A stretch of DNA of 64,000 bases from Actinomycetota bacterium (lineage in GTDB: Bacteria; Actinomycetota; UBA4738; HRBIN12), in the NCBI GenBank assembly GCA_035640355.1, contig DASQWI010000002.1, forward strand, positions 1-64,000, in the 5' to 3' direction. The position numbers and the translations under genes were made by a program. The notes beneath the pieces are model-generated. The model had not been told where the DNA came from, made no database searches, and saw only the letters and a list, made by a program, of their open reading frames with translations. Of this stretch, positions 14,104-28,836 are shown piece by piece; position 1 is the stretch's first letter, and every line of letters starts with the position of its first letter.

Positions 14104-14670
14104 TCATTCGACGGGCGCCGGTGCGGCCGCGGGTCTCGCGGCGCTTCGTTGCTCGGCGTGCTTCTTCGTCGGCGCGATCACCATCACCATGTTGCGTCCG
14201 TCCTGCTTCGGTGTTGCCTCCACCGTGGCCATGTCGCCCAGGTCGCCGACCAACCTGTCCAGGATCCGTCGGCCGAGCTCCGTGTGGGCCATCTCTCGCC
14301 CGCGGAACATGATCGTCACCTTGACCCGCGCGCCCGCGTTCAGGAACCGGACGACGTGACCCTTCTTAGTCTCGTAGTCGTGTGGGTCGATCTTCGGCCG
14401 GAACTTGATCTCCTTGACCTCGACCCTGGCCTGCTTCTTGCGCGCCTCCTTGAGGCGGATGTCGCGCTCGTACTTGAACTTGCCGTAATCCATGATCCTC
14501 GCGACGGGCGGGTTCGCCTGCGGCGCGACCTCGACGAGGTCGAGATCGAGCTCCTGGGCCTGCCGCAGCGCCTCCTGCGTGGAGACGATGCCGATCTGGG
14601 CTCCGTCCGGACCCACCAGACGCACCTGCGCCGATCGGATCCGGTCGTTTATCCGTGGATCAGCCGAGAC
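14104..14670 (-). CDS. infC: Translation initiation factor IF-3 (non-canonical start)
   Basis: IF-3 binds the 30S subunit and rejects non-initiator tRNA and non-standard start codons. The protein has the N-domain RINDRIRSAQVRLVGPDG, the MDYGKFKYE linker region and the C-domain IMFRGREM and KQDGRNMVMV. The conserved N-terminus begins before the first ATG/GTG/TTG in frame (GTG at 14625), and an in-frame TGA lies at 14679-14677. The codon aligned with the AUC start of homologues (I-S-T-E-P-R-I-N) is GTC at 14670, giving V-S-A-D-P-R-I-N. It lies 9 nt after a GGGAGG site (14685-14680). An ATA at 14652 is the alternative. Third-position start variants are known for infC (AUU, AUC) and allow IF-3 autoregulation; GUC would be new. 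The exact start is uncertain. Confidence 0.93.
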   Translation of the reverse strand, partial: VSADPRINDRIRSAQVRLVGPDGAQIGIVSTQEALRQAQELDLDLVEVAPQANPPVARIMDYGKFKYERDIRLKEARKKQARVEVKEIKFRPKIDPHDYETKKGHVVRFLNAGARVKVTIMFRGREMAHTELGRRILDRLVGDLGDMATVEATPKQDGRNMVMVIAPTKKHAEQRSAARPAAAPAPVE

Positions 14671-27672: not shown

Positions 27673-27918
27673 CTACTTGACGACGGATTCCTCCGGGCGC
27701 TCCGCGGAGATGTCGCCGTCGGCGATCTCCTCGAGCGCGATCGAGAGCGGCTTGTTCTTCAGCCCGGTCTCGACGAGCGGCGGGATGAACTCCGCGCGGC
27801 CCTCGCCGAGCTGGTTGTAGTACGAGTTGATCTCTCGCGCGCGTTTGGCGGCGAGGATGACCAGCGTGTACTTGGAGTCGACCTGTGCGAGCAGGTCGTC
27901 GATCTTGGGATCGATCAC
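27673..27918 (-). CDS. rpoZ: RNA polymerase omega subunit
   Basis: 81-aa omega subunit, aiding beta' folding and, in some bacteria, ppGpp sensing. It starts [20 protein letters not shown], followed by the conserved [18 protein letters not shown]. The GTG start at 27918 overlaps the gmk stop in GTGA. The order mihF-gmk-rpoZ-coaBC is canonical for Actinobacteria. The Rel enzyme that makes (p)ppGpp is at 58111-60357. Confidence 0.96.
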
Positions 27919-28514
27919 GAATCCTCCAGCGATGAGTTGTCCCGCGGTGTCCGGGACGCTTCGATGATAGCAGCGACCCGCTTCGCCGCTCGTTCGACGT
28001 CGTCATTCACGACGACGTGGTCGAACCAATCCCGTTGCTGGAGCTCTGAGCTCGCCTTCTGGAGTCGGCGGGCGAGACGGGCATCGTCCTCGGTACCCCG
28101 CGAGCGGAGTCTGCGTTCGAGCTCCTCGAGGGACGGCGGCTCGAGGAACACGAGGACGGCGTTCGGCATGGCGTCTCTGATCTGGCGCGCGCCCTGCACG
28201 TCGATCTCGAGGAGAGCATCCCCGCCGAGCCCCAGGATCTCCCTGATCGGCGCGGCCGGCGTCCCGTACCGGGAGCCGAAAACGTCGGCCCACTCGAGCA
28301 GCTCGCCCTCGGTGATCATCCGGTCGAACTCCGCCGCGTCGACGAAGTAGTAGTGCACGCCGTCCCGCTCCCCCAGCGACTCGCGCGGCGCTCGCGTCGT
28401 GACGGAGATCGATACCGTCAGATCCGGAACGAGCTCGCGCACCCGCCGAACGACGGTGCCCTTGCCGACGCCGGAAGGCCCGGCGATGACGTAGAGGATG
28501 CCGCGACGTTCGAT
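27915..28514 (-). CDS. gmk: Guanylate kinase (apparent AUC start)
   Basis: Phosphorylates GMP to GDP; about 199 aa. It contains the P-loop [17 protein letters not shown], the GMP-binding [13 protein letters not shown] and [17 protein letters not shown], and VQGARQIR. No ATG, GTG, TTG or CTG occurs in frame upstream of the P-loop; the first GTG (28442) falls inside the domain. ATC at 28514 gives I-E-R-R-G-I-L-Y-V, aligning exactly with the M-K-E-R-G-L-L start of homologues. A second ATC is at 28499. No clear Shine-Dalgarno is visible; mihF ends 7 nt upstream. Either a genuine AUC start or a sequence error is possible. The 3' end is coupled to rpoZ. Confidence 0.9.
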
Positions 28515-28521
28515 CGCGGCG

Positions 28522-28836
28522 CTACTTCTTGGCGAACTCGCCGAGGAGCGAATCGCGCTGCTTCGCGCCCAGTCCGCGAACGCGACGACTCGCGGATATG
28601 TCGAGGCGCTCCATGATCTTCCGCGCCCGGACCTTCCCCACGCCCGGGAGCGACTCCAGAACCGTGGATACCTTCATCTTGCCGACGGTGTCGTCGCCCT
28701 CGCGGGACAGCACGTCGGTGAGCGTGAGCTTCCCCGACTTGAGCTGGCCCTTGAGCTCTGCCCGCTTCCTTCGCGCCTCGGCGGCCTTCTCGAGAGCCTG
28801 CTTGCGCTGTTCCTCCGTCAGGACGGGAAGCGGCAT
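28522..28836 (-). CDS. mihF: Integration host factor, actinobacterial type (mIHF)
   Basis: 104-aa nucleoid-associated DNA-binding protein specific to Actinobacteria, unrelated to the proteobacterial IHF heterodimer. It begins MPLPVLTEEQRKQALEKAAE, with a basic N-terminal helix (RRKRAELKGQLKSG) and a helix-two-turn-helix region containing LPGVGKVRARKIME and VRGLGAKQRDSLL. ATG at 28836 is chosen for its GGAG site 6 nt upstream; a longer in-frame extension was rejected. It has its own promoter at 28894-28923 and heads mihF-gmk-rpoZ-coaBC. Confidence 0.95.
   Translation of the reverse strand: MPLPVLTEEQRKQALEKAAEARRKRAELKGQLKSGKLTLTDVLSREGDDTVGKMKVSTVLESLPGVGKVRARKIMERLDISASRRVRGLGAKQRDSLLGEFAKK

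Follow-up and report, generated by a model that had tools for sequence, protein, structure and literature searches.

The gene infC, which encodes the initiation factor IF3, starts at AUU in E. coli and at AUC in Streptomyces, and is subject to autoregulation by IF3 (PMC5472188 and references therein). In the case of the Streptomyces gene sigR, a GUC start codon and its repression by IF3 have been proven experimentally (PMC5472188). Translational coupling without a Shine-Dalgarno sequence has been established in E. coli (PMC9955659), where it is described for the coat and lysis genes of the RNA phage GA (PMC9955659; review PMC12548453). Replacement of AUG by AUA fails in the E. coli coupling: total downstream reading reached 2.2% of upstream reading with UAAUA, compared to 25.5% with UAAUG (PMC9955659). 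No report on the start of gmk was found in the literature searches. This gene encodes guanylate kinase, an essential enzyme. The gmk gene described here is that of an uncultured actinobacterium and is located in the window, the 64,000-nt stretch of DNA that was analyzed (contig DASQWI010000002.1 of assembly GCA_035640355.1, positions 1 to 64,000).

The gmk gene and its junction with mihF

The gmk gene is located on the minus strand at positions 27915..28514 and comprises 199 codons, counted from the ATC at 28514, and a TGA stop codon. Its translation matches TIGR03263 with 225.4 bits (curated cut-off 160.45), contains the P-loop GPSGVGKG and has matches in the PDB; the alignment with solved Gmk structures begins at residue 3 (2j41, E 5e-47). 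It is the single gmk found in the genome (2.79 Mb, 97% complete). The gmk frame is open from a TGA at 28676 down to its own stop at 27915. The first standard start codon of this frame is the GTG at 28440..28442 on the minus strand, which is unusable for the production of active Gmk because it lies beyond the P-loop. No ATG, GTG, TTG or CTG is present in the frame between the TGA at 28676 and this GTG. The codon aligned with the N-termini of the homologous proteins is an ATC (28512..28514, minus strand), which is proposed to be the start codon; the Gly5 codon follows at 28500..28502.

On the same strand, gmk is preceded by mihF (28522..28836), which encodes the actinobacterial integration host factor (NF041260, 137 bits, cut-off 60), has an ATG start codon behind AAAAGGAG and ends with a TAG at 28524–28522. 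The mihF stop codon and the proposed gmk start are separated by the 7 nt CGCCGCG (28515..28521), and there is no Shine-Dalgarno sequence ahead of ATC28514. In the window's family, the distance from the mihF stop to the aligned position is 2–13 nt. The lack of start codons before the P-loop, the position of ATC28514 at the start of the homologues and the end of mihF 7 nt upstream had all been described in an earlier sequence-only reading of this DNA, and they hold on reexamination. The gene downstream of gmk, rpoZ (27673..27918, minus strand; TIGR00690), has a normal GTG start codon which overlaps the gmk TGA and is preceded by GGAGG.

Folding energies point to a possible hairpin enclosing the gmk start codon, GCCGCGAT CGAAC GTCGCGGC (28500..28520, minus strand). 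A hairpin at this place is also predicted in several related genera, and in the family the energies are better than those obtained with shuffled 5′ arms (combined P about 8e-5). Pair counts and RNAalifold give no covariation support for it in the family.

The genus has one further member in the genome collection, G001, a separate MAG of a second species (CALGFI010000171), the DNA of which is 97.7% identical to the window over mihF and gmk. Over these 919 nt it differs from the window by 21 substitutions, yet the mihF–gmk junction is identical letter for letter, including the ATC. An assembly error is therefore unlikely. Taken with the comparison across the class given below, the missing standard start of gmk is a real lineage-wide feature, for which neither chance nor sequencing or assembly error is a likely source.

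Start codons of gmk within and outside the class

The window belongs to a small actinomycetote class, identical with its order, which is represented by 27 genomes in the collection. The mihF–gmk junction is readable in 21 of them, and none of these 21 has ATG as the gmk start. ATG, GTG and TTG are all missing from 13 of the 20 scored gmk genes (14 of 20 if the frame-broken gene of G008 is counted). As a control, 15 other gene families from the same neighborhoods were scored alike; their starts were anchored on references, in place of an all-against-all comparison of open reading frames, which was polluted by GC-rich shadow frames. Only 2 of the 211 control genes lack a standard start (Fisher P about 1e-14, shared ancestry ignored). 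ATG is the start of 119 of the 211 control genes and of gmk in 0 of 17 genera (P about 2e-6, shared ancestry again ignored). The class genomes are interrelated, so that the gmk statistics overstate independence.

The proposed start codon of gmk is ATC in G000, G001 and G015, CTG in G010, G004, G012, G009 and G021, ACG in G005, TTG in G006 and G002, and GTG in G003, G013 and G016, which form one genus, in G022 and probably in G008. The gene of G008 (BPGL01000001; L011/L127) has a GTG in frame upstream and an apparent extra G in the run before the P-loop, which breaks the frame and is probably a sequencing indel. The start is doubtful or missing in the sister genera G017 (only ACG), G018, G019 (ATT inside mihF, or GTA), G020 and G024; the stretch from the mihF stop to Gly5 offers no convincing near-cognate in any of them. 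In G018, G020 and G024, MAGs of 81–89% completeness of which G020 has a second gmk-like match, the mihF stop lies 4–9 nt from the Gly5 codon, and this space holds no plausible near-cognate of AUG; the incompleteness of these MAGs and the second match in G020 call for caution. The sequence-only reading had named relatives with ATG or GTG at this place as evidence against an unusual start. Such evidence turned up only in part: no relative in the class has ATG here and the closest one has the same ATC, but GTG or TTG occurs in a minority of them, either at the aligned codon or next to it. That reading was concerned with a single gene, but the feature extends throughout the class. Gene-finding programs look for ATG, GTG or TTG starts. 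In this class, gmk is therefore expected to be annotated as truncated past the P-loop or to be missed.

Within the window's family, scored with the G008 genus left out, all ten genera have a near-cognate that differs from AUG in a single base, is in frame with gmk and lies no more than one codon from the aligned ATC. These codons, at positions −1 to +1, are ATC (two genera), CTG (four), ACG (one), TTG (two) and GTG (one). Shuffling of the local sequence gave a mean of 3.0 out of 10 genera with a near-cognate, and 0 of 20,000 shuffles reached 10; in the other two frames, 0 and 1 genera have such a codon. Since the near-cognate recurs in frame at one place in every scored genus, this place seems to be under selection as a start, whose codon drifts among AUC, CUG, ACG, UUG and GUG. 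The position of AUC28514, the sister species and the family-wide near-cognates all support the earlier proposal that AUC is the start codon of gmk. In genera of sister families, for example G018, G020 and G024, the conserved near-cognate was not found. Gly5 is retained in every readable member of the class, including the startless cases, which makes an inner start of gmk unlikely.

Among the mihF-adjacent gmk genes outside the class (Actinomycetota and other sampled outgroups), 7 of 98 have no ATG, GTG or TTG nearby and 5 of 98 are wholly startless. All 28 gmk genes without mihF found upstream have one of these codons nearby (Fisher P 0.02, counting the class as well). The five wholly startless genes have ATC in G111, CTG in G065 and in Gordonia sp. 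ABSL1-1, and no near-cognate in G032 and G046, two genera of one outgroup family. In G111 (L193), the apparent ATC start is located behind the Shine-Dalgarno-like AGAGGAG and is a separate AUC case. The Gordonia record (L071, NZ_JASXSH010000003) is not labelled as a MAG; its gmk has only CTG, and no ATG, GTG or TTG, near the N-terminus.

Other unusual starts were observed in the window. In infC (position 14670, minus strand; loci L139–L162), GGGAGGTGAT is followed at Shine-Dalgarno distance by GTC TCG GCT GAT CCA CGG. The corresponding codon is GTC in most members of the class, and GTA in G012, G009 and G005; G022 alone has ATG. The apparent start of IF3 itself in the class is therefore GUC or GUA, compared to AUC in Streptomyces. 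The priA gene (25137–25011, minus strand; metK–priA, loci L221–L242) lacks a standard start at the conserved N-terminal LSGPV. It keeps a fixed frame relative to metK: in 19 of 20 measured genomes, its spacing from the metK stop, which ranges from 1 to 100 nt, is 1 modulo 3. In the 3′ end of metK, the homologous codon reads ATG in G000, G008, G015 and G011, and most other genomes have ACG. This suggests that priA starts at an overlapping ATG or ACG inside metK. Because of this frame lock, priA was dropped as a candidate second startless gene. Loose start usage throughout the genome was likewise rejected. A gene finder based on a codon model, too coarse to detect infC or priA, flagged 21 of 338 genes in about 378 kb of the window's genome; on inspection these were mostly boundary errors or shadow frames, and gmk was the clearest case.

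Initiation of gmk translation

We propose that gmk is translated by weak near-cognate initiation at AUC28514, carried out by ribosomes that have just completed mihF. Judged from sequence comparison, this is the best explanation and probably the correct one. AUC28514, which is one base away from AUG, would be read by the normal initiator tRNA. Ribosomes terminating at the mihF UAG, 7 nt upstream, would restart on gmk through termination-reinitiation or coupling; as gmk has no Shine-Dalgarno sequence, the ribosomes that translate it are most likely those terminating at this UAG. The gmk start would be kept weak in the lineage, so that Gmk would be made as a small fraction of MihF, and it would potentially be sensitive to IF3. 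Initiation at AUC itself, the coupling, the low output and the IF3 sensitivity are what we infer. Initiator tRNA genes with a CAU anticodon and the usual GGGCTCATAACCC anticodon arm are present in 21 of the 27 class genomes, the IF3 gene in 25 and the gene of the recycling factor RRF in 22. The earlier reading had regarded reinitiation after mihF as another route to gmk. The lack of a Shine-Dalgarno sequence favors reinitiation as such, and so does the fact that almost all relatives start gmk near the stop codon of mihF; as a separate route it is less convincing and is better joined with AUC in one mechanism.

In view of the failure of AUA in the E. coli coupling (PMC9955659), the output of Gmk is expected to be low. 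Low output may be the point, as the class never uses AUG at the gmk site, and control of gmk by IF3, a link raised in the earlier reading, is plausible from the known cases of infC and sigR. For an essential enzyme, a low expected output would be an argument against AUC-coupled initiation, which also leaves G017, G018, G019, G020 and G024, the genomes without a convincing near-cognate, unexplained. In G018, G020 and G024, codons less related to AUG may serve (GUC in G020), or else the restart may need no start codon.

The latter possibility can be extended to the window: the ribosomes leaving mihF would resume within a few codons, at any codon. The short spacing between the mihF stop and Gly5 in the three genomes just named, the retention of Gly5 in all startless cases and the similar appearance of the outgroup genera G032 and G046 are in line with this explanation, as is the observation that E. 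coli ribosomes deprived of active RRF read past a stop codon without an initiation codon (PMC9955659). We regard it as unlikely, since the near-cognate found at the same in-frame place in every scored genus of the family would be needless and RRF genes were detected in most class genomes. The broader claim, that gmk needs no start codon in the class, and also in a few further Actinomycetota, despite a normal recycling factor gene, its translation being coupled to mihF and largely independent of the codon, is held to be a little less likely still.

It is rather improbable that gmk starts at the near-cognate ATT28553 inside mihF or at the inner ATC28499, even though both are in the gmk frame in the window. 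ATT28553 is seen in this genus only, and a start inside mihF is impossible in the relatives that have gmk in the mihF frame. A start at ATC28499 would lose the Gly5 that all class members retain. The same relatives (G010, G020, G021, G024 and others) lend some appeal to recoding at the mihF stop, as readthrough would fuse the two proteins there. The offset of the gmk frame to mihF is 0, +1 or +2 and differs among the genomes, so that neither frameshifting nor readthrough can be conserved; a slippery site or structure common to the genomes was not found. A programmed MihF–Gmk fusion was consequently rejected: neither a fixed frame relation nor a shared recoding signal was found, and recoding of any kind is very improbable. 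Assembly error or decay of gmk in the window's MAG is hardly credible, for although the sequences are MAGs and the G008 gene has a probable homopolymer indel in the P-loop region, the junction is unchanged in the sister MAG amid 21 substitutions, the conserved 199-aa frame is intact in the genome's only gmk, and the same anomaly recurs in many genera.

Implications and comparison with known systems

If initiation at AUC, CUG or ACG is confirmed, an essential nucleotide enzyme joins the few bacterial genes with non-canonical starts, and the supply of guanine nucleotides would be tied to the translation of mihF and perhaps to IF3 as well. Whether coupled reinitiation needs any start codon can be asked directly in the sister genera that lack a near-cognate. 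If codon-independent restart were true instead, a core essential enzyme would be made without a start codon in cells with a normal recycling factor gene.

With respect to coupled gene pairs, gmk shows the short distance between stop and start on the same strand. Like the coupled genes of phage GA, it has its start near the upstream stop and no Shine-Dalgarno sequence of its own. The described cases differ in using standard start codons, and AUA proved ineffective as a substitute in E. coli. With respect to genes with non-canonical starts, gmk has no ATG, GTG or TTG at its conserved N-terminus and a near-cognate conserved throughout the scored genera of the family. It resembles infC as an essential gene whose start is not AUG, GUG or UUG; the infC start in Streptomyces is the same AUC, and discrimination by IF3 is possible in principle. 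It differs from infC, which is repressed by its own product IF3 and in the class carries a strong Shine-Dalgarno sequence; gmk lacks such a sequence and directly follows mihF. The likeness to sigR lies in an actinobacterial, non-canonical start that is missed by annotation programs and a weak start that limits output. For the regulatory gene sigR the proof is experimental; gmk, in contrast, is metabolic, its codon varies by genus and its start trails the stop codon of another gene.
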